In this document: positions 7,670 to 47,640 of the stretch, piece after piece
Layout: every line of letters starts with the position of its first letter
Numbering within the stretch: position 1 is the first letter of the stretch
Assembly: GCF_900143525.1 (NCBI RefSeq)
Contig: NZ_FREZ01000008.1
Coordinates: 1 to 64,000 of the forward strand
Reading direction: 5' to 3'
Length of the DNA stretch: 64,000 nt
DNA from: Ruegeria sp. Alg231-54
GTDB lineage: Bacteria; Pseudomonadota; Alphaproteobacteria; Rhodobacterales; Rhodobacteraceae
Made by a program: the position numbers and the translations under genes
The notes under the pieces: generated by a model
What the model saw: the letters and a program-made list of their open reading frames with translations, nothing else
Databases searched by the model: none
Told to the model about the DNA's origin: nothing

Positions 7670-9087
7670 TGGCCAGCCTCCCTCCAATACGCGCCGAATA
7701 CATCCTCAAGCGCGGGTTCGCGTGGGGCTATTTCACGCACAATTTTGGTGGTCTGGACGAAATGCCGCCAATGCAGGTTGGTATCGATAGAGTTTCCGCC
7801 CCAACTGCCGCATCCCATGGACAGGGAAAAGGGCATTCCGTTGTTAAAGCTGCCGCCCGTTGCAAAGGTATGCGCCTGGTTCACGATAACCCGGCAGGTG
7901 GGGAGCTCTCGGCCCAGCTCAACAGCGCGCGCGTCGTCGCTGGTGTGAATGCCAACCGAATGTCCGGCCCCCTGATGGGCCAGGACGCGCGCTGCGAGGG
8001 CTTTGGCGCCCGCATAGTCCGAGGCCCGGTACAGCGCCAGAACGCGGCTCAGCTTTTCTCCGGACAGGGGATGGTCAGGACCGATCCCATCGGTCTCTAC
8101 CGCCAGAAACTTCGTGCCTTCGGGCGCTTTGTCTGCCATCCCCAACGCCTCAAGCATCTTGTCGGCGTCCTGAGCGATCGCTGATCGGTTGAGGTGCCCG
8201 TCCGGCCAGAGACGTGCAATGATACCTGCGGCATCTGAAGCAGGGACAAGCGCACCGCTTTCGGCCGCCAGTGCTGCGACGAAGTCGTCATAGACTGCGT
8301 CCACCACCACAACCGCGTTCTCGGACGAGCACGAAGTCGCATTATCAAAACACTTTGACGCTGTGATCTTGGCCGCGGCCGCCGACAGATCGGCGGTTTC
8401 ATCGACAATCACGATGACATTGCCCGCGCCGACCGCGACGGCGGGTGTGCCGCAGGACTGGGCCCGGTGGACGTTGTTCTGACTGCCGGTGCAGATCACC
8501 CGATCCGAAGTCTCCATCAGCCGTTGTGTTTTGGCCTTTGATCCCGGTGCGGGGATCATCTGAACCAGATCCCGATCCAGCCCCAGCTTGTCAAACTCGG
8601 CGTGAATGAAGCTTAGCAGTTTCTCGCAGGATGCAACGCCCTTGGGCGAGGGGGCGACGACGATGGCGTTGCCACCTTTGAGAGCATTAATGATGTTGTT
8701 GGCCGGTGTTGCGGCCGGATTGGTCGAAGGAACCACCGCGCCTACGACGCCGATCGCACGGGCGATTTCTGTGATGCCTGTTTCAGCGTCATCGCTGATG
8801 ATGCCATATGTTTTTGCCTCAGCAATGTCGCGCAAAAGACCCAGAGTTTTGCGGTGGTTCTTGGTAATCTTGTCGGGGACATTGCCCAGCCCGGTGGTTT
8901 CAACCGCCAGTTCTGCCAGCGCCTGATTGCGCGCGGGTTCCATGATCGCCCAGCCTGCCGCCAGCGCCGCCTTATCATAGAGCGCCTGACTGCCTGTAGC
9001 CTCATAGGCAGCCTGAGCCTTGCGCGCATGTGCCACGATCCGGTCCACTTCGGCGATTTCGGGGGCTATGTCGTTTGGAGCGTTCAT
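7666..9087 (-). CDS. sauS: Acylating sulfoacetaldehyde dehydrogenase
   Basis: This 473-residue enzyme belongs to the CoA-acylating aldehyde dehydrogenases (EutE/AdhE-type fold). It carries the cofactor-loop region VVPSTNPAATPANNIINALK and the catalytic Cys at about 253 within FDNATSCSSENAVV. The glycine-rich AVGAGNVIVIVDE segment is also present. It would interconvert sulfoacetyl-CoA and sulfoacetaldehyde with NAD(P)H. The call as SauS rests on resemblance to that subfamily plus an overlapping AMP-dependent ligase and a co-transcribed carboxylate transporter. Propionaldehyde- or succinate-semialdehyde-type acylating dehydrogenases are the main alternative. It lies 55 bp after tctC. Confidence 0.75.
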   Translation of the reverse strand: MNAPNDIAPEIAEVDRIVAHARKAQAAYEATGSQALYDKAALAAGWAIMEPARNQALAELAVETTGLGNVPDKITKNHRKTLGLLRDIAEAKTYGIISDDAETGITEIARAIGVVGAVVPSTNPAATPANNIINALKGGNAIVVAPSPKGVASCEKLLSFIHAEFDKLGLDRDLVQMIPAPGSKAKTQRLMETSDRVICTGSQNNVHRAQSCGTPAVAVGAGNVIVIVDETADLSAAAAKITASKCFDNATSCSSENAVVVVDAVYDDFVAALAAESGALVPASDAAGIIARLWPDGHLNRSAIAQDADKMLEALGMADKAPEGTKFLAVETDGIGPDHPLSGEKLSRVLALYRASDYAGAKALAARVLAHQGAGHSVGIHTSDDARAVELGRELPTCRVIVNQAHTFATGGSFNNGMPFSLSMGCGSWGGNSIDTNLHWRHFVQTTKIVREIAPREPALEDVFGAYWREAGQ

Positions 9088-39185: not shown

Positions 39186-39692
39186 ATGAACATAGACAAA
39201 AAGATCACCGACGATCTGGTGGCCAACGACATCTCATTCGTCACCACGGTTCCGTGCAAGCAATTGGCAGGCGTTATCGACGAAATCGACGCGCGTGAAG
39301 ACATCTTTCACATCCCGTCGAACAAAGAGGATGAGGGCATGGGCCTGTGCGCCGGTGCCTGGATGGGCGGTAAACGCCCCGCGATCATCATGCAGAACAC
39401 GGCCATCGGCGTAACCATCAACACGTTGGCAACGTTGATCCAATACTACCGCATGCCATTGCCCATGTTGATCTCATATCGCGGAGAGCTGCGCGAACCC
39501 GTCGCCTGCCAGGTCGAGATGGCGGTGCATACCAAGGCGCTTCTGGCACAGATGAACATCCCGACCTACCACTTCCATCATCAGGCAGATGTCGAGGAGC
39601 TGGATGCGATCCTGAAATACACCTTCATGTGCAACAAGCCGGTCGCCATTCTGACCGACGCCAATTTCTGGGGAGGCTATGGCGACCAATGA
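39186..39692 (+). CDS. comD: Sulfopyruvate decarboxylase, alpha subunit
   Basis: This 168-residue protein corresponds to the PP-domain half of sulfopyruvate decarboxylase. It has IPSNKEDEGMGLCAGAWMGG (about 44-63), which carries the conserved Glu region that activates thiamine diphosphate at the subunit interface, and AIIMQNTAIGVTINTLATL. With ComE it converts sulfopyruvate to sulfoacetaldehyde and CO2. Its stop overlaps the comE start by four bases (ATGA). Phosphonopyruvate decarboxylase is a close relative, but the hps context favours the sulfonate substrate. Confidence 0.88.
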   Translation: MNIDKKITDDLVANDISFVTTVPCKQLAGVIDEIDAREDIFHIPSNKEDEGMGLCAGAWMGGKRPAIIMQNTAIGVTINTLATLIQYYRMPLPMLISYRGELREPVACQVEMAVHTKALLAQMNIPTYHFHHQADVEELDAILKYTFMCNKPVAILTDANFWGGYGDQ

Positions 39693-40246
39693 TCCGTTCT
39701 GAAATCCTGAAAGAAATCGCGCCGATCCTGCGGGATCAATTGGTTGTCTGCAACATCGGCATTCCCAGCCAGGAGCTGCACGCCATCGACGACCAGCCCA
39801 CCAATTTCTACATGCTGGGCACTATGGGGTTGGCCTCAAGCATCGGCCTGGGTCTGGCCTTGTCTCAGCCAAAGGCGGTCATCGTAATCGACGGTGACGG
39901 GTCCATCCTGACCAACCTCGGCACCTTGCCGACCATCGCCAACAACGTGGCTGACAATTACATCTTGCTGATTGTCGATAACGGATCTTATGGGTCGACC
40001 GGGGATCAGCCGACTTACGCGGGCAAAAAGACATCGCTGGCGGCTGTGGCGCAGGCCTGTGGTTGCGAGAATGTGGTCGAGTGCCAGGCCGAAGACACTG
40101 GCGCCGCATTGCAGGCAGCGCTCGACAGCGGCCAAATGACAATCATCGTCAGCAAGTGCGAAAGCGGCAATGCCAAGATGCCGGTGATCACGATGGACCC
40201 GGTTGTGATTCGCGACCGCTTTATGAAGGCCGTCCAAGCGTCCTAA
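39689..40246 (+). CDS. comE: Sulfopyruvate decarboxylase, beta subunit
   Basis: This 185-residue protein is the PYR/cofactor-binding partner of ComD. The thiamine-diphosphate motif GDGSILTNLGTLPTIANNVA (GDGS with downstream N) and LIVDNGSYGSTGDQPTYAG are visible around residues 73-115. With ComD it makes sulfoacetaldehyde, the substrate of Xsc. The two-subunit arrangement is the usual bacterial form. A terminator follows 28 bp after the stop, so comE ends the operon. Confidence 0.88.
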   Translation: MIRSEILKEIAPILRDQLVVCNIGIPSQELHAIDDQPTNFYMLGTMGLASSIGLGLALSQPKAVIVIDGDGSILTNLGTLPTIANNVADNYILLIVDNGSYGSTGDQPTYAGKKTSLAAVAQACGCENVVECQAEDTGAALQAALDSGQMTIIVSKCESGNAKMPVITMDPVVIRDRFMKAVQAS

Positions 40247-40273: not shown

Positions 40274-40303
40274 ACGCCGTCCCGTTCGGGGCGGCGTTTT
40301 TTT
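40274..40303 (+). terminator. Rho-independent terminator after comE
   Basis: A 10-bp stem ACGCCGTCCC / GGGGCGGCGT (one G-T pair) with a GTTC loop is followed by a run of seven T residues. It ends the hps-comDE operon. Confidence 0.88.
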
Positions 40304-40410: not shown

Positions 40411-41709
40411 ATGAAATTCAAATTGCTTGCGCAAAGCGTGCTTTTCGGTGCCGGGCTGTTGATGGTTGGCCTAACGCCGGCGCAGTCTCAGACCCGCGAG
40501 GAAAGTCAGGGCATGGTTCTGCTGCGCGGTTTGCCGACGTTGGATACAGATCACAGCATCGCGATTGTCGAGCTGGATCCGGAATCTGATCAGTTCGGAG
40601 AGCTACTGAGTGAAGTTGAGCAGCCCGATATCCAGCATCCATTGCATCACCTCTACTACAGCCCGAACGGGCGTCTCTATTCGACCGGGTTGGACCCGTC
40701 CTGCAGTCTGGCTGAAATTGGACTGTCCCGCGATTCTAGCGGAACGCCGGTGATTGAGGGCTTTACCTGCCTGGATACCCAAGGGCAGATCGTTGGCGAG
40801 GACATCATGTGGGCCACGTCGAACGGGCAGGAGTATATGTTCGTGACCTTCATGGGTGGCACTGGAGGCGATGATGGCGGCTCGGTCGGTGTATTCGACA
40901 CTCAGACCAACGAGGTGGTCAAAATTATCGAAGCACGCAAAAGCCAAGTCGGCGAGGGCGAGCCATATATCATGTACCCACACGGGATATCTGCGTTCGA
41001 CGACCGCATGGTGGTCACCTCAACGATACATCCCGATATGACGACTGGTGTGGGAAATGTGTTGACGATCATAGACCTTAACACGCTTGAACCCATCCAA
41101 AACATCGTGGTGGAAAACGAAAAGCCGTTGGATTTTCCGTCTTCACCTGTCGAGGTGCTGTTCGCACGACCTGACATGCATGCTGACATTGAACCAGCCA
41201 TTCTGGCCAATACGATGTTCGGATTCGAGACCTGGAAAATCCCCTATGACGCCGATTCCAAAACCTTTGGAGAAGCCGAAGTCATATATAGTGGCGTGGC
41301 CAATGAAACCGCTGTTCCGCTGGAGTTCTATGGCACTGAAGATGAGCTGTTCATCTCTCATGGATTACCGGGTGTTGTGAAGCGCTATGAACTGGCCGCA
41401 CTGCCCGAGCTTGTATCCAGCGGGCCGGACATCGTTGCCGATCCGGGTGCACATCACATGATCTTTTTCACGTCCGCTTCGGGCCGAGACCTGATCGCCG
41501 TTCAAAATAACCTGCTCAATCTGGGCAACGCGGCTGATGACGACCCAACGGATGTGGATTTTATTGCCGACCTGAACGCACACACGATCACGATCCATGA
41601 TCTTGAGACGGGCGAACGTATCGCCGAGGTCAATTTCAAGGAGCGCTACAACAAAGGCGTGGACAACGTTGAAGGGCTGTTTGGTTCGGGTTTTGTGCAC
41701 CACCATTAA
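40411..41709 (+). CDS. Secreted SBP56/methanethiol-oxidase-like beta-propeller protein (divergent)
   Basis: This 432-residue protein starts with a signal peptide (MKFKLLAQSVLFGAGLLMVGLTPAQS) and looks like a seven-bladed propeller. Its N-terminus resembles selenium-binding protein 56 / MtoX: the IAIVELDPESDQF segment followed by a paired His (HH at 79-80), where that family has VDVDPxS followed by DELHH. Further His stand in YPHGI (191), SHGLP (317), GAHHM (348-349), HTITIH (391, 396) and a C-terminal HHH. MtoX is a copper oxidase of methanethiol, and its known operons include a MauG-like gene, as here (next gene, 15 bp). True MtoX assignment is not supported, because the classical MtoX motifs around the second half are missing. 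Confidence 0.6.
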   Translation: MKFKLLAQSVLFGAGLLMVGLTPAQSQTREESQGMVLLRGLPTLDTDHSIAIVELDPESDQFGELLSEVEQPDIQHPLHHLYYSPNGRLYSTGLDPSCSLAEIGLSRDSSGTPVIEGFTCLDTQGQIVGEDIMWATSNGQEYMFVTFMGGTGGDDGGSVGVFDTQTNEVVKIIEARKSQVGEGEPYIMYPHGISAFDDRMVVTSTIHPDMTTGVGNVLTIIDLNTLEPIQNIVVENEKPLDFPSSPVEVLFARPDMHADIEPAILANTMFGFETWKIPYDADSKTFGEAEVIYSGVANETAVPLEFYGTEDELFISHGLPGVVKRYELAALPELVSSGPDIVADPGAHHMIFFTSASGRDLIAVQNNLLNLGNAADDDPTDVDFIADLNAHTITIHDLETGERIAEVNFKERYNKGVDNVEGLFGSGFVHHH

Positions 41710-41724
41710 TGCTCTGGGGCCGTT

Positions 41725-42846
41725 ATGCTTCGGGTGTTTTTGACAGCGGCCGTCGCCGTGGTGATCGCGGCGACGGCGTGGGTCTTCTGGGACCGCGCAC
41801 GCGGGCCCACGGCAACGCCGATCGCTGGCTTCTCGGCGCCCTTCGTATTTGGACGCTTTGCTGTGCCCCCGGACAACCCGCTGACACAAGAGGCCTTTGC
41901 CCTTGGGCGGCACCTGTTCTACGACCCGAGCCTGTCCGGCAACAATCAGGTGTCCTGCGCGACATGCCATATGCAGGCCCTTGCCTTCACTGATGGTCTG
42001 GCAAAGTCGCCCGCATTGTCTGGCGGAGAGCTGGAGTTCAGCTCCATGAGTTTGATCAACCTTCTTTGGGGCCAAGAGCGGTTCTTCTGGGACGGTCGCG
42101 CAACGTCGTTGGAAGCGCAGGCATTGATGCCGATTCAACACCCGGACGAGATGGATCAGGACTTGGATGCGCTGATCACGGAACTGCAGGCATCCCGCGA
42201 CTATCGACGGATGTTCCGCAAGGCATACGGGGAAGTCAGCGCCGAAAACGTGGCCCGGGCGTTGTCGACCTTCATGCGAATGCTGATTTCGTCGGATTCA
42301 AAATACGACAGGTTTCTGCGTGGCGAAGTGCGTTTGACTGCGCAGGAAGAACATGGCCGCAAACTATTTATGGCGCATCCGGACACCAAGGTTTCATTGC
42401 GTGGTGGGAACTGCATCGACTGCCACAGCCAGTTCTTGACTTCCGGGTTTCGGGACGCATTGGATGGGTTTTCAAACAATGGGCTGGATTCCGATGACGA
42501 CCTGCCGGATGGCCTGATGGCCGTGACCGGCAATCCGGCGCACAAGGGCTTCTTCAAAGTGCCGACACTGCGCAACATCGCCGTAACCGCGCCTTACATG
42601 CATGATGGTCGGTTCGAGACATTGGAAGAGGTCATGGATCACTACAATGACGGGATTGTCGTTAGCGATACGCTCAGCCCTTTGATCCTTGAGGCCGACA
42701 ATGCACCAGAGGCCGGGCAGGGCACTGTGGGCCTGCGTATGACGCCCGACGAGGTGCAGTCCATCATCGCGTTCCTGAACACGCTGACGGATGAGGGTTT
42801 TCTAACAAACACACAGTTTTCCAATCCGTTCGAAGGAGACGGCTGA
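41725..42846 (+). CDS. MauG/cytochrome c peroxidase-family di-haem protein
   Basis: This 373-residue periplasmic protein has an uncleaved or lipidless N-terminal anchor (residues about 4-22) and two c-type haem sites: CATCH (Cys78, Cys81, His82) and CIDCH (Cys230, Cys233, His234). The region FFWDGRATSLEAQALMPIQHP is typical of the MauG/MbnH branch. MauG-like enzymes use a high-valent di-iron haem state to oxidise Trp or other residues on a partner protein. It is translationally coupled to the MbnP-like gene (TGATG) and directly follows the SBP56-like gene, so the three probably act together. Confidence 0.82.
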   Translation: MLRVFLTAAVAVVIAATAWVFWDRARGPTATPIAGFSAPFVFGRFAVPPDNPLTQEAFALGRHLFYDPSLSGNNQVSCATCHMQALAFTDGLAKSPALSGGELEFSSMSLINLLWGQERFFWDGRATSLEAQALMPIQHPDEMDQDLDALITELQASRDYRRMFRKAYGEVSAENVARALSTFMRMLISSDSKYDRFLRGEVRLTAQEEHGRKLFMAHPDTKVSLRGGNCIDCHSQFLTSGFRDALDGFSNNGLDSDDDLPDGLMAVTGNPAHKGFFKVPTLRNIAVTAPYMHDGRFETLEEVMDHYNDGIVVSDTLSPLILEADNAPEAGQGTVGLRMTPDEVQSIIAFLNTLTDEGFLTNTQFSNPFEGDG

Positions 42847-43571
42847 TGCGTATTTGGATGACGGGACTAGCGATACTGTTGTTCGTTGGCGGAGCGCTGT
42901 TCTTTGCTCTTGGTCCGCAGCGCACTACGTCGATCACTTTGACCTTTCATGCGAAGATGGGTGATCATCCGTTGGTGTTTGATGAGTTCGTGTACGAAAA
43001 CCCCGGCGGGCGCGGCACGTTCAGGGTTCGTGACTTCCGGCTCTACCTCAGCAACCTGACCCTCTCGCAAGATGGGGCACTGTTTGCTGAGCCTGACAGC
43101 TATCATCTGCTCCGGTTCGACAATCCGGAAACAACCAATTCGATCAGGCTGAACGACATTCCCCTGGGCAGCATTGAAAACGTCCGTTTCATGATCGGCG
43201 TAGACCCAGAAGCCAATGGCTCGATCCAGCCGCGCGGGGATCTTGATCCCAACAGTCAAATGGCATGGAATTGGGAGGTCGGCTATAAATTCGTCGTGAT
43301 GGAAGGAACGCTGCGGATTGGCGAAGAGGTCTCGCCGTTGGTCTATCACGTTGGGTTTTCGGACAACGCGCGCGAGGTCGATATCCAGTTGCCACCGGAT
43401 ATCGCTGTTGAGGGCGATGTGGACCTGCACATGAACGTCGATGTTGCAAAGCTTTTTGACGGGCCCACGCAAGTCGACCTGCGTAAGCTCTCATCAGTCA
43501 AATTCAATCGCGATGACGCCGCCATGCTGGCCGACAATTACGCGGTCATGATCACCCCGTCGTTTAAGTGA
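42846..43571 (+). CDS. MbnP-like copper-associated periplasmic protein
   Basis: This 241-residue protein has an N-terminal hydrophobic anchor or signal (about residues 5-22). It resembles the MbnP family (linked to methanobactin operons), with the segments FRLYLSNLTLSQDG and MAWNWEVGYKFVVMEGT. In characterised MbnP the partner MbnH (a MauG relative) converts a Trp to kynurenine at the copper site. Here a MauG-like gene overlaps its start and a propeller gene precedes it, but no methanobactin genes are nearby. So this is probably a non-methanobactin version of the MbnH/MbnP pair. Confidence 0.65.
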   Translation: MRIWMTGLAILLFVGGALFFALGPQRTTSITLTFHAKMGDHPLVFDEFVYENPGGRGTFRVRDFRLYLSNLTLSQDGALFAEPDSYHLLRFDNPETTNSIRLNDIPLGSIENVRFMIGVDPEANGSIQPRGDLDPNSQMAWNWEVGYKFVVMEGTLRIGEEVSPLVYHVGFSDNAREVDIQLPPDIAVEGDVDLHMNVDVAKLFDGPTQVDLRKLSSVKFNRDDAAMLADNYAVMITPSFK

Positions 43572-43610: not shown

Positions 43611-44363
43611 TCAGAACCGATAAGTCGCACCAATCATGGGGCCTGACTGTTCGAACGTGAAATCGTTGCCGTCAATCTCGTGATCGAATGAGATATAGCG
43701 ATAACCGCCGCGGATCACCCACCTGTCGTTGATTTCATAATCCGCAGTCAGCAAGACCTGCCATGTTTCGCTGTCGCTGCTGAAGCCGCCGTAGTCAAAA
43801 AAGCCGGTGCCGGACCACCTGTCGTTGAATGCGACGCGGGCTCGAACGCCGATGACCGGGTCTGTCCAGCTTTCATCGACACTGACGGACCGGCCCGGGG
43901 CTGCTCCGGGAAGGACGGTGAAATCGGTCTGCGTCCGAAACCAGCGGAAACCGCCGACCAGGTCCACGTAGGACGTATCTGTAGTATAAGCCCGGTAACC
44001 TACATAACCGCTGAAAAATTGCGTTGTGAGAGAGGTTTCAAGACCAGAACTTGCCGGACCGGGCGTGTCATTGCTGAAAGAGACGTCTACGTAGTTGTAG
44101 TCGGCCAATAGTGACCAGCGCCCGTTTGATGCACCAAAGACGCCCATGAATGCCAGATCGAGATTTTTTAGCGCGTCAGAGAAACTCAGCGTTCCATCAA
44201 CGGTGCCGCGGGCAGTTTCCTGCGTAACCTCCGTTTCAGGCATGAACAGGTAAATTGTTGCCGCATAGGACCAATCTGATTGCTGCGCCACAGTGGCAGT
44301 TGTCATTGGTATCCATGTCGCGACGGCCCATGCTGCGGTCGTTATTGCCCTCTTAAAGACCAT
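43611..44363 (-). CDS. Outer-membrane beta-barrel protein
   Basis: This protein of about 250 residues has a signal peptide (MVFKRAITTAAWAVATW..., cut near VAQQ) and a barrel made of alternating strands with aromatic girdles, ending in the classical terminal Phe (IGATYRF). It is likely a 10-12-stranded outer-membrane pore or anchor. ATG at 44363 is chosen because it begins the signal peptide; the upstream part of the frame is shadow. It is convergent with the MbnP-like gene and follows the DUF3179 gene on the same strand (48 bp), so it may serve the sulfatase/DUF3179 group. Confidence 0.72.
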   Translation of the reverse strand: MVFKRAITTAAWAVATWIPMTTATVAQQSDWSYAATIYLFMPETEVTQETARGTVDGTLSFSDALKNLDLAFMGVFGASNGRWSLLADYNYVDVSFSNDTPGPASSGLETSLTTQFFSGYVGYRAYTTDTSYVDLVGGFRWFRTQTDFTVLPGAAPGRSVSVDESWTDPVIGVRARVAFNDRWSGTGFFDYGGFSSDSETWQVLLTADYEINDRWVIRGGYRYISFDHEIDGNDFTFEQSGPMIGATYRF

Positions 44364-44411
44364 TTTGATCCTCCGTTTGTTCCAATTTGGCAATCTGATC
44401 TGATTGCTCAT

Positions 44412-45656
44412 TCATTCAGCGGCTTCATCGGACTGTTGAACGCGCGGTCCGACACGATTGATATCGGTTTCCGGAAAGAACTCGGACCAGACATGCCAGA
44501 ATACACCGGCACGCAGGGTCTCGACGCGTTGCAGTTTTCCCTGATCCGACATCCCCCAGAAATCGCAGCGGGTGATGGGCTGGCCTTTGTCATTGTACCA
44601 AACGCCAAGGCTTTCGTACTTTGGGTCCAGACTGACAACCACGTCTCGTCCACCGACATTTGCGTTTACGATCCAGTCATTCTCGACCACGAAATCATCG
44701 GTCCAGCAGGCGGCATCATTGCCGATCGTGATCCCCCAGACATAAGACTTATTCGGAAGCCGGTCGTCCGAACTGTCCATATTGTCCATGACGGGCGCAT
44801 CTTCCTGATGCTGGCGCGCGATCCCCCAGCCAAAGGTTATCTCGGTCACCATGTCCAGCAGCCGCAAGAATGGGTTGGGCGAGGGCGTGTTCAGATACAC
44901 CTCGCCATCGGGAAACGCTTTTTGAAATCCGCGGAACGTCATCCGATACGTGGGCCAGGGCTGCATCTTGGCGTCAGGTCGCACAGGGCAGGCGGGCCCA
45001 TCCGTACCAGAATCACGATCTGCCTCGCGAAACCCATAGATCTGTTGGATGGGTTCCCCGGTTTCGTTGTCCCGCAGGATCAGGTTGTTGCCATGTTGGG
45101 CCAGAACTTCAAGATCCAGCCGGTTGCCTTCGATACGGGGGGCATAGCCTTGCCCAAGGTTGGCCATCGCGCAAAAGGTCATGACGATATCTTCGCCACC
45201 CAACCCGTCGGCGTTGCCGGCCAAATGGGGCCGCATGATTTGCGCATCGGGATGCGCCCGGGCATGGCCGTTGTTTTCAATAACGATGACCGGCGCGGTT
45301 GGACCGATGAATTTTTGCGCCTCGGCAATAGGAAAGAAGGCCGCAGTGTTGAGTTGGTTCCTCAGCCCCAGATGGACCCACACATAGGGAAATCCATACA
45401 GAACAAGAACCAGTAGCGTCACGAATAGCCACAGCCAGAATGGGCCGCCGCCCAGAATGAAATGCGCAAGCGTAGCGACGGCAAATCCGATCAACCCCAC
45501 TGCGATCAGACGGTATTCGTGCCGGATAAACCGGATCATGTTTTTGCGTTTAACCTTAAGCACCATTTGTGAAATGTCGCCAAGATCGCGGAAATAGACG
45601 AACCCGATACCCAGTGAAACGACTAAACCCAGAGCGAAAATGATGTTTCCTGCCAT
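44412..45656 (-). CDS. DUF3179 domain-containing protein with N-terminal membrane helices
   Basis: This 414-residue protein has three to four N-terminal membrane helices (about 2-22, 52-68, 72-96) and a C-terminal DUF3179 region, recognisable from DIVMTFCAMANLGQGYAPRIEGNRLDLEVLAQHGNN-type sequence (residues about 180-215) and CDFWGMSDQGKL. The conserved Cys (FCAMAN) and the Gly-rich loop are present. DUF3179 function is not established; its members are membrane-linked and may have redox or metal roles. It sits between the sulfatase and the barrel on one strand, so these three are likely one transcript. Confidence 0.8.
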   Translation of the reverse strand: MAGNIIFALGLVVSLGIGFVYFRDLGDISQMVLKVKRKNMIRFIRHEYRLIAVGLIGFAVATLAHFILGGGPFWLWLFVTLLVLVLYGFPYVWVHLGLRNQLNTAAFFPIAEAQKFIGPTAPVIVIENNGHARAHPDAQIMRPHLAGNADGLGGEDIVMTFCAMANLGQGYAPRIEGNRLDLEVLAQHGNNLILRDNETGEPIQQIYGFREADRDSGTDGPACPVRPDAKMQPWPTYRMTFRGFQKAFPDGEVYLNTPSPNPFLRLLDMVTEITFGWGIARQHQEDAPVMDNMDSSDDRLPNKSYVWGITIGNDAACWTDDFVVENDWIVNANVGGRDVVVSLDPKYESLGVWYNDKGQPITRCDFWGMSDQGKLQRVETLRAGVFWHVWSEFFPETDINRVGPRVQQSDEAAE

Positions 45657-45718
45657 ATGTTTTTCCTGATTTCGGGTTCCAATAGACCGCCTGGAGGAAA
45701 ACCGCGGGCGGTCAGGAA

Positions 45719-47386
45719 TTATTGCTGCGGTGACGCGCGTTTTATGAGAAACGCGTCGACGGCGAGTTGGGTTTCCGGGCGAATATTCTCGATCCCTTCG
45801 TAAGGTACGCCATAGGCGGGCGCGGTGTCGGGGAATTTCTCTTTGCGGGCCATGTGGCGGCCAAGGATGCGTGCGAATTCCTGCCCGCCCCAGGCACCAA
45901 CCTCTGTCGAGACCGAGTATTCTTCACGCGTGTCCCGGTAGAGATCAAAGAATTTTGCCAGAATAGCGCTTTCCCCCGGCCCCGGCAGTTTCAGCTTTAG
46001 CTGGTCTTTCACGACCGCCTTGGGCTTGTTCACCGAATAGACGATTACGTGATCGCGACGGGCCTTGGATTCGTCGGCAAACAGTAGGGCGGCAGACTGG
46101 TCCACTCCATCAACAAGCCTATCCCGCGGAATGTACTGATCCGCCCCGGCAAAGCGCGACAATGTCGTATAGAGGTCCGAGACATGGATGATGCTGTTGA
46201 GCAAACCGTCCGCCTCAATCATGCCGGGCCAGCGGATGAAAGCATCGACACGGATTCCGCCCTCAGTCGTGTCACCCTTGCCGCCAGCATAGATCAGCGG
46301 GGTGAATCCGGATTGCGGCGCGTATTTGGTGAAATGGCCATTGTCGCCCATGACCACAACCACAGTGTTTTCCGTCAGGCCCAGCTCTTCTAGCCGCGCG
46401 AACAAGTCGCCCAGCCACTGATCGAGCAACTGCATTTTGTCCACATACAGACCGCCGTTCACGCTCTCTGGCCCCGACCGTCCGGCGCGGGTGTTGTCCA
46501 GCGGAATCATCGGCCAGTATTGCAGGAAAAACGGGTCTTCACCGCCTGCAAGACGGTCCAGTTCTTCCAGTGTCTTGTCCTGAAACGCCTGGTTCATCTC
46601 GTCGTATTTCGCTGCGTTCCAGCGCTCACCGGTTTCCATGCGGATTTCGCGGATCGGACCGCCGGTTTCCCCCTCGATAACTGTCATCATCGCGGCAGAG
46701 TCCGGTCTGAACCAACCGTCCAGCGTGTATTTGTCGTCATAGTCCTTGATCGCGACCGAGACCTGCTCCTTGATCGCGTCGTCGTTGAATATAGTCAACT
46801 GACCCTGCTGATGGATGGCGTGCTGGGCATAATCAAAACCCTGATTCATCGCCCAGCTTTCAGCGATATCGCCCATGTGCCATTTGCCAACATGACTGGT
46901 AGCATAACCCGCCTGTTTCAATACCTCAGCCAGCGTCACCTCATCGCCGGGCAAACCAAAACCAGCGATGTCCACGGTCGTATCGCCCATGCCCATTCGC
47001 ACAGGCAATCGCCCGGTCATTTGCGCCACGCGGGTCGGCGTACACGAAGGCTCGGTGTACATCCGCACCATCCGCAGTGCCTGATCTGAGAAATCGTTGA
47101 TGTTCGGAGTCTCATATCCCCGAACGGCGTTAAGCTCGGGGATTCCCATGTCGCCAAAGCCCATATCATCGATCAAGACACTGATGATGTTTGGGGGCGT
47201 TCCTCCATTGCTTTCTCGAAACGCAGCCAGTGCTTCGTCAACGGCCGCGTCATCCTGGGCCCATTGCGATCCACGCTGTGCTTGAAGGATATAGAATTCC
47301 GCATCGTGTTGAATTGGGTTTTCCTGCGCTTCAGCTGATAAGGCGGCAAAGCCCAACGACAACACAAAAACACACTGCAATTTCAT
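45719..47386 (-). CDS. Secreted sulfatase (formylglycine-dependent arylsulfatase family)
   Basis: This 555-residue protein has a signal peptide (MKLQCVFVLSLGFAALSAEA, cut after about residue 20) and the sulfatase fold. The metal-binding start is VLIDDMGFGD, and the CxPxR signature that is turned into formylglycine is SCTPTR (Cys115). The basic helix region has GKWHMG, and the second metal site VMGDNGHF. It hydrolyses a sulfate ester in the periplasm. ATG at 47386 is preferred over upstream starts because it opens the signal peptide. The linked genes encode DUF3179 and a barrel protein. Its substrate is unknown, but inorganic sulfate release beside sulfonate operons is notable. Confidence 0.88.
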   Translation of the reverse strand: MKLQCVFVLSLGFAALSAEAQENPIQHDAEFYILQAQRGSQWAQDDAAVDEALAAFRESNGGTPPNIISVLIDDMGFGDMGIPELNAVRGYETPNINDFSDQALRMVRMYTEPSCTPTRVAQMTGRLPVRMGMGDTTVDIAGFGLPGDEVTLAEVLKQAGYATSHVGKWHMGDIAESWAMNQGFDYAQHAIHQQGQLTIFNDDAIKEQVSVAIKDYDDKYTLDGWFRPDSAAMMTVIEGETGGPIREIRMETGERWNAAKYDEMNQAFQDKTLEELDRLAGGEDPFFLQYWPMIPLDNTRAGRSGPESVNGGLYVDKMQLLDQWLGDLFARLEELGLTENTVVVVMGDNGHFTKYAPQSGFTPLIYAGGKGDTTEGGIRVDAFIRWPGMIEADGLLNSIIHVSDLYTTLSRFAGADQYIPRDRLVDGVDQSAALLFADESKARRDHVIVYSVNKPKAVVKDQLKLKLPGPGESAILAKFFDLYRDTREEYSVSTEVGAWGGQEFARILGRHMARKEKFPDTAPAYGVPYEGIENIRPETQLAVDAFLIKRASPQQ

Positions 47387-47640
47387 TCCAATCTCCCCTT
47401 CAGAATGCCGACTACACAGCGCAGGCTGTTTGTCATATTGAAACATTATTATATTTGCTGTTGAAACGCTACGCTGCAAATGCCGGTTGGAGGTAACCTC
47501 TCGATTTCTTGGGAAAGTCCGTCACACGTCGGCCGTATGCCACGTGTCTTAGCGGCTGACAGGAGGAACCCCGGAAGGTTGCGCAAAACCACGCGAAATA
47601 TACGAGAGAAGCGGCGTGAGTGAACTGTGTGTTTCGGCAG

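Follow-up and report, generated by a model that had tools for sequence, protein, structure and literature searches.

A recurrent three-gene unit of Ruegeria, predicted to encode an SBP56-superfamily propeller, an MbnH/MauG-type di-haem protein and an MbnP-fold protein, looks like a relative of known copper enzyme kits

Results

A compact three-gene unit in Ruegeria sp. Alg231-54

We analysed a stretch of 64,000 nucleotides of Ruegeria sp. Alg231-54 (positions 1 to 64,000 of the forward strand of contig NZ_FREZ01000008.1, assembly GCF_900143525.1; hereafter the window), within which positions 40411–43571 form a compact plus-strand unit of three genes for a secreted propeller, a di-haem protein of the MbnH/MauG type and a protein with the MbnP fold (hereafter the trio). 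The first gene (40411–41709, plus strand) encodes a 432-amino-acid propeller, assigned below to the SBP56 superfamily and predicted to be seven-bladed, that has a signal-like N-terminus by eye and ends in HHH. The second (41725–42846, plus strand) encodes a 373-amino-acid di-haem protein with CxxCH motifs at residues 78–82 and 230–234 and, by eye, an N-terminal anchor or signal. The third (42846–43571, plus strand) encodes a 241-amino-acid MbnP-like protein of family PF20243 with an N-terminal helix, a WNW motif (W141 and W143), two His residues of interest (H87 and H168) and no Cys. The propeller stop and the di-haem start are 15 bases apart, whereas the di-haem stop and the MbnP-like start share 1 base (TGATG). 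A reading made earlier from the sequence alone had claimed the three genes as one unit with just this gap and overlap, and the open reading frames indeed lie at the coordinates given here, all on the plus strand.

The trio recurs across genomes

We followed the trio in three sets of genomes (the genus of the window, a collection of named genomes and the family of genome G414), which overlap in part, such that their counts are not additive. Within the genus, 17 of 54 genomes carry the propeller; these 17 are also the ones with the MbnP-like protein, and at all 15 intact propeller loci the di-haem and MbnP-like genes adjoin the propeller gene in the same order. In genome G047 all three genes are fragmented, having decayed together, and in genome G050 decay has gone so far that matches were confined to the beginning of the propeller and the last part of the MbnP.

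A scan of the named genomes with a propeller alignment (A2) returned 169 relatives; we retained the 80 best loci, 33 of them close (64–99% identity) and 47 distant. At 32 of the 33 close loci, a di-haem gene and then an MbnP gene lie directly 3′ of the propeller gene; the sole miss, L065, stops at a contig end, and among the 32, L069 is decayed and L053 has an MbnP that runs off its contig. The trio was found in Ruegeria, Leisingera, Alteromonas, Bowmanella, Colwellia, Cognaticolwellia, Thalassotalea, Simiduia, a SAR86 metagenome-assembled genome (MAG) and a Gemmatimonadales MAG, and its presence in the last of these may reflect a binning error or transfer. When the neighbours of the 14 close loci outside Ruegeria and Leisingera were clustered, the gene caller of the clustering script recovered the propeller at 14, the di-haem gene at 14 and the MbnP gene at 12 of the 14 loci, and any further gene cluster appeared in at most three; a profile search placed an MbnP at all 14, one of them truncated where the contig stops. 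In the family of genome G414, whose own di-haem protein groups with that of Cognaticolwellia, the propeller query matched 16 of 295 genomes, and both partners are present at 14 of 14 intact propeller loci. Locus L217 of this family has its di-haem match split over two frames, in genome G905 the di-haem and MbnP matches come after a propeller that is broken, and genome G821 has a weak 25% propeller match with no partners in the surrounding DNA fetched. Because the three genes stand in the same order at 15/15, 32/33 and 14/14 loci, we conclude that the unit did not arise by chance, and the expectation that the same set would be met in other genomes is borne out. No copy of the trio was found in the plasmid collection scanned, and a scan of viral contigs with MtoX found no relative.

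The trio contains a distinct branch of MbnP and MbnH

As a control, we looked at MbnP/MbnH pairs outside the trio. PF20243 is found in 19 of 398 genomes of the phylum, the window's genome included, and around the 18 other places (8–16 kb each) there is a MauG-type gene at 16 and a propeller at one, L165, which is itself another complete trio. Every one of 15 non-trio pairs has the order MbnP then MbnH (11 read directly, 4 via the Pfam position), whereas in the trio MbnH precedes MbnP. Likewise, the 11 non-trio MbnP frames that were read contain 7–11 Cys (counted in stop-to-stop frames), whereas the trio MbnP-like proteins contain none in 18 of 25 cases and three at most. The propeller thus accompanies a single branch of MbnP/MbnH. 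In this genome MbnC was not found by a search whose control was equally silent, and MbnA and MbnB were not searched for. That MbnP and MbnH occur without methanobactin is already known, since the pair, called mysterious partners, is reported to be conserved far beyond methanobactin producers (PMC3621798).

Along its entire length the di-haem protein resembles TIGR04039 (MbnH; E = 2.3e-74), with a weaker match to TIGR03791 (MauG), and both CxxCH haem sites are invariant in 24 of 24 sequences. Its closest solved relative is PDB entry 6E1C (E = 2.4e-54; next match 1.9e-34), which bears the name 'Di-heme enzyme' only and which we take to be MbnH. At E of 1e-3, TIGR04039 finds matches in 51 of the 54 genus genomes, so that di-haem proteins of such kind are common in the genus; the top 15 by score are those of the trio, and 0 of the 54 genomes has a match above the TIGR04039 cut-off. 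When 25 trio di-haem proteins were placed in a tree with 15 canonical ones, the two groups came apart with support of 100/100. A second tree, of 12 trio, 15 canonical, 8 MtoX-locus and 4 other proteins, resolves three separate clades (100/99, 100/99 and 100/97); the deep branch order among them, at 80/16, gives no backing for a shared origin of the trio and MtoX di-haem genes. On these trees the trio di-haem protein is placed in a clade apart from both canonical MbnH and the MauG of mtoX operons. Two of the other rows, which lie on long branches beside the MtoX-locus MauG clade (96/98), come from a locus in genome G003 (L183:3621–6022, contig C32) that carries two tandem MbnH/MauG-like di-haem genes, and adjacent matches occur in many genomes of the genus.

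The MbnP-like protein scores 144 bits against PF20243, for which the gathering score is 27 bits, and, being free of Cys, lacks the four-Cys motif of TIGR04052. Its predicted structure (predicted local distance difference test (pLDDT) score 84.5), in which residues 2–21 form a hydrophobic N-terminal helix, matches six chains of PDB entry 7L6G, the MbnP of Methylosinus trichosporium (E = 1.5e-7 to 1.5e-6, TMq 0.53–0.57), and the fold search returned nothing except 7L6G chains at E < 0.001. A profile alignment sets the MAWNW motif on MAWNW of 7L6G; as the E-value of this alignment is only 0.68, the motif match leans on the fold match. M139, W141, W143, Y147 and H168 are present in 25 of 25 trio MbnP-like proteins and H87 in 23 of 25. 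The partner alignments A4 and A5 drew on 24 and 23 loci, respectively, with the window added. The copper site of MopE is reported to consist of two His residues and one kynurenine derived from Trp (PMC3423442), and by analogy H87, H168 and a Trp of the WxW motif are compatible with a copper site of this type. Genome G021 carries a lone MbnP frame (L142:8864–9637, contig C36) in which WxW reads WSR, W143 being lost; we found no propeller or di-haem match in the 17 kb fetched around it. The flanking outer-membrane, DUF3179-type and sulfatase genes are, by eye, the window's own, and G021 also has a complete, diverged trio on another contig (L016).

The propeller resembles SBP56 and has an invariant His/Glu set

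The propeller model (AlphaFold2 on alignment A3; pLDDT 86.8, predicted template modelling score 0.86) has a strand pattern that we read as seven four-stranded blades, and its top fold match in the PDB is 2ECE, the SBP56 of Sulfolobus tokodaii (E = 6e-10, TMq 0.64, root-mean-square deviation 5.7). Consistent with this, profile–profile comparison (hhalign) with eight SBP56 sequences gave a probability of 98.5% and an E-value of 2.4e-15 over 309 columns at 15% identity, and aligned H79/H80 of the propeller with the HH pair of SBP56 and E248 with a Glu that is invariant in SBP56. The predicted fold and the profile comparison together place the propeller in the SBP56 superfamily, below the Pfam family cut-off. 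This genome also has two genuine SBP56 genes elsewhere (584.3 and 686.8 bits), and the 14–15 kb around them (L162 and L163) contain no match to the trio di-haem profile at E of 1e-3.

A search of the single sequence of R. pomeroyi MtoX with the propeller profile gave an E-value of 9.9e-14 and set the HH pair on H88/H89. In Hyphomicrobium MtoX, His89, His90, His140 and His412 are the likely Cu ligands (PMC5739008), which we mapped by motif to H88, H89, H141 and H424 of R. pomeroyi MtoX; the HH that the propeller keeps amounts to two of these four proposed ligands.

Alignment A3 contains 41 of the 80 loci plus the window, hand-chosen for spread (39 were omitted, including the decayed L069 and the cut L065), and holds 42 propellers: 23 from trios, the window's included, and 19 without partner matches. 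H79, H80, E130, H191, E248, E305, H348 and H349 are present in 42 of 42 and H432 in 41 of 42. In all, 21 of 388 positions (residues 45–432) are invariant, including 5 of 15 His (hypergeometric 6e-4, a post hoc value on related rows, for descriptive use only). In the model, six of the seven blades, one after another, contribute to the His/Glu set with residues at the beginning of their innermost strand, and from these strand positions we infer an arrangement of the kind expected for a site along the axis of the propeller. The sequence-only reading would have been undermined by a propeller without a metal site like that of SBP56; instead, the conserved set shares its His pair with SBP56 and MtoX, and the terminal HHH to which that reading had drawn attention is kept in 23 of 23 trio propellers.

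Flanking genes lie outside the unit

Upstream, the window carries the sulfopyruvate decarboxylase alpha and beta genes (39186–40246; TIGR03845 and TIGR03846, both above cut-off), and upstream of these lie an alcohol-dehydrogenase-type gene and a Usp gene. A terminator-like hairpin with a 10-pair stem and a T-run (40274–40297, plus strand) stands between the decarboxylase genes and the unit, which weakly suggests that the unit is transcribed separately; the hairpin is a consensus match only, and the five such sites compare with 3.6 expected in shuffled sequence, about the chance number. A search upstream of the unit for a sigma-70-type promoter consensus gave no match. Among the 33 close-clade loci, 12 have homologues of the decarboxylase genes, and every one of these 12 is in Ruegeria (tblastn at E of 1e-30 on locus DNA); in several Ruegeria the homologues lie kilobases away from the trio. 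We considered a link of the trio to sulfonates and rejected it, as 0 non-Ruegeria close loci have these genes, which are outside the unit. On the minus strand, 43611–47479 encodes an outer-membrane barrel-like protein, a DUF3179 protein and a sulfatase, and genes of all three kinds lie 3′ of the trio at 5 of the 33 close-clade loci, all in Ruegeria (L037, L038, L040, L052 and L060).

Discussion

A possible periplasmic metalloenzyme module

We propose that the trio is a self-contained periplasmic metalloenzyme module in which the di-haem protein makes a kynurenine copper site on the MbnP-like protein, which in turn serves the propeller; we regard this as close to an even call that falls slightly short of one. 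In the MopE/CorA and MbnP copper proteins a Trp is turned to kynurenine. Here, the di-haem enzyme would oxidise a Trp of the WxW motif in this manner, and the kynurenine would form a copper site together with H87 and H168. The anchored MbnP-like protein would then load copper into the propeller or shuttle electrons for it, and the propeller, the presumed enzyme, would use its His/Glu set and its C-terminal His as a catalytic metal site. Such a module would parallel mtoX-SCO-mauG, with the MbnP substituting for the Sco chaperone, and the substrate might be a small reduced compound, with a thiol or other sulfur compound as the default guess from the kinship to MtoX. Linkage, predicted folds, motifs and clades are what we observed; copper, an oxidase activity, Trp oxidation, the direction of transfer and the substrate are inferred. 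The more far-reaching proposal, that the trio represents an undescribed class of periplasmic metal oxidase in which an SBP56-superfamily propeller with a His/Glu ring is activated by a dedicated MbnH-MbnP maturation arm bearing a kynurenine copper site, is one that we put forward tentatively and with more doubt than belief.

A number of observations, here and in the next two paragraphs, weigh against the proposed copper module. Each protein falls below a family threshold: the propeller scores 18.7 bits against PF05694 (SBP56), where the Pfam gathering score is 34, and does so over residues 45–81 only; the di-haem protein scores 250.5 bits against a TIGR04039 cut-off of 362.85; and the MbnP-like protein scores 47.9 bits against a TIGR04052 cut-off of 140. 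Of the three kinships named by the sequence-only reading, the SBP56/MtoX-like propeller thus stands by its fold, for which 2ECE is the best match, and not by family membership; the MauG/MbnH-like protein stands by its relation to TIGR04039 and 6E1C, though outside canonical MbnH; and the MbnP-like protein stands by its 7L6G fold and WxW motif, short of the NCBIfam family. As propellers do, the propeller model matches a great many structures (587 PDB chains at E < 0.001), so that its fold match alone is unspecific. The region of MtoX H141 aligns near E130 and the ligand is not clearly kept, and MtoX H424 and the C-terminal His of the propeller are alike by their position near the C-terminus only. 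The loss of W143 in the lone MbnP of G021 is what would be predicted on loss of a Trp-oxidising partner and favours the module, but it is a single case, and the decayed MbnP of L069 retains WNW.

Nine residues of the propeller (C98, C120, W134, H207, H317, H391, H396, H430 and H431) are specific to the trio, being present in 22–23 of 23 trio propellers and in 0–2 of the 19 others; for W134 the split is 23 of 23 versus 0 of 19 relatives without MbnH/MbnP matches, in which the position is Phe (16) or Leu (3). These residues also fit a modification directed at the propeller itself, whereby the di-haem enzyme would convert W134, which is near E130 in sequence, to a MauG-like protein-derived cofactor, and the MbnP-like protein would be an accessory copper protein. 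Indeed, tryptophan tryptophylquinone has been argued for in MtoX (PMC5739008). However, because the trio propellers are close kin here, the split proves no link to MbnH and may reflect ancestry alone. Moreover, 22 of 23 trio propellers have no Trp other than W134 and W275, and the known type of MbnH target is the WxW of MbnP. We therefore consider modification of W134 quite unlikely.

The 47 distant propeller loci (L070–L116) form a sister clade at which, within up to 8 kb on each side and far less on short contigs, none of the 47 has an MbnH or MbnP match; instead, an SCO4226-type gene is present at 30 and a TetR gene at 31 of the 47 (family names assigned from one locus). The SCO4226 family is reported to bind nickel (PMC4186839), so the metal of the core propeller may not be copper. 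Accordingly, the propeller could hold nickel or another non-copper metal, with the copper centre of the MbnP-like protein used only for electron transfer to or from it, and the His/Glu set is Glu-rich, which seems unlike a typical copper site. However, neither the SCO4226-type nor the TetR gene recurs near the trio at the 14 clustered loci, and MtoX, the closest characterised relative, requires copper (PMC5739008); a non-copper propeller seems to us improbable. The sister-clade rows aligned are 26–31% identical to the window propeller, and L070, which groups with them, is 40% identical. In Methylococcales and relatives (for example, L071:6866–9029) the propeller gene follows a TetR gene and an SCO4226-like 'nickel responsive' gene, forming a separate metal-type cassette. 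L070 itself (7857–9080; Chryseobacterium phosphatilyticum, Bacteroidota) encodes a solitary lipoprotein-like propeller with Phe at the W134 position and MHH at its C-terminus, and its flanks look by eye like unrelated housekeeping genes.

Among the propeller fold matches of lower TM are BtuG-type lipoproteins, lactonase-type propellers and the zinc metallochaperone AztD (6n01 and 6cmk; TMq 0.42–0.43), which raises the possibility that the propeller is not an enzyme and is instead an AztD-like metallochaperone or metal scavenger for acquisition, storage or sensing, with MbnP/MbnH as a high-affinity copper arm. Such a role would agree with the proposal that MopE acts in copper uptake (PMC3423442), with the description of CorA as a copper-repressible Cu(I)-binding protein, and with the SCO4226-type genes that adjoin sister-clade propellers. 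The fold match to SBP56 is, however, the better one, and no transporter gene lies beside the trio at more than 2 of the 14 clustered loci. We judge a non-enzymatic propeller unlikely, if not negligibly so.

Significance and relation to known systems

If the trio does represent such a class of periplasmic metal oxidase, MbnP/MbnH, the mysterious partners of PMC3621798, would gain a client enzyme, the first in the literature covered. One branch of MbnP/MbnH is tied to a single candidate client, a metal-type propeller, in Alpha- and Gammaproteobacteria alike, and its role is therefore open to gene-deletion tests. The trio is also a second, separate case of a propeller, a di-haem enzyme and a putative copper protein beside mtoX-SCO-mauG, which suggests a general maturation scheme.

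The likeness to mtoX-SCO1/senC-mauG lies in a periplasmic SBP56-superfamily propeller with an HH pair of the Cu-ligand type, and in a MauG-type di-haem gene and a putative copper protein that share one unit. MtoX itself, at E of 1e-100 or better, is present in 1 of the 54 genus genomes (G022), too few for mutual exclusion of MtoX and the trio to show, and absent from this genome; the R. pomeroyi record has mtoX, SCO family protein and cytochrome c peroxidase genes as the operon analogue, and a MauG-type gene is near 8 of 10 MtoX loci examined. The trio differs in a propeller that lies below the SBP56 cut-off and has another residue set, in di-haem proteins of a separate clade, and in an MbnP-like gene where the mtoX operon has SCO. 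The MtoX-operon theme of the sequence-only reading thus holds for the analogy and the MauG-type gene, and gives way at the SCO position. With MbnP/MbnH, the 'metallo-mystery pair' of TIGR04052/TIGR04039, the trio shares the 7L6G fold, the MAWNW motif and an adjacent MbnH-type gene, and from it the trio departs in its Cys-poor MbnP, its reversed order, the propeller gene in front and its separate di-haem clade.

Two further systems bear comparison. In the methanotroph copper proteins MopE/CorA (found with CorB), the MopE site, made of a Trp-derived kynurenine and two His, is the model that we propose for the MbnP-like protein; to our knowledge, there is no propeller in the MopE/CorA-CorB system. 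The loci with TetR, SCO4226-like and propeller genes share the invariant His/Glu set, with a terminal His in 18 of 19 rows, and differ in having no MbnH/MbnP match, W134 or HHH. Among the literature matches listed, which did not extend to the neighbourhood analysis of the main MbnP-kynurenine study, there is no description of the three-gene set. The trio thus looks like a third branch, next to canonical MbnP/MbnH and to mtoX-SCO-mauG, and an apparently undescribed relative of these copper enzyme kits.

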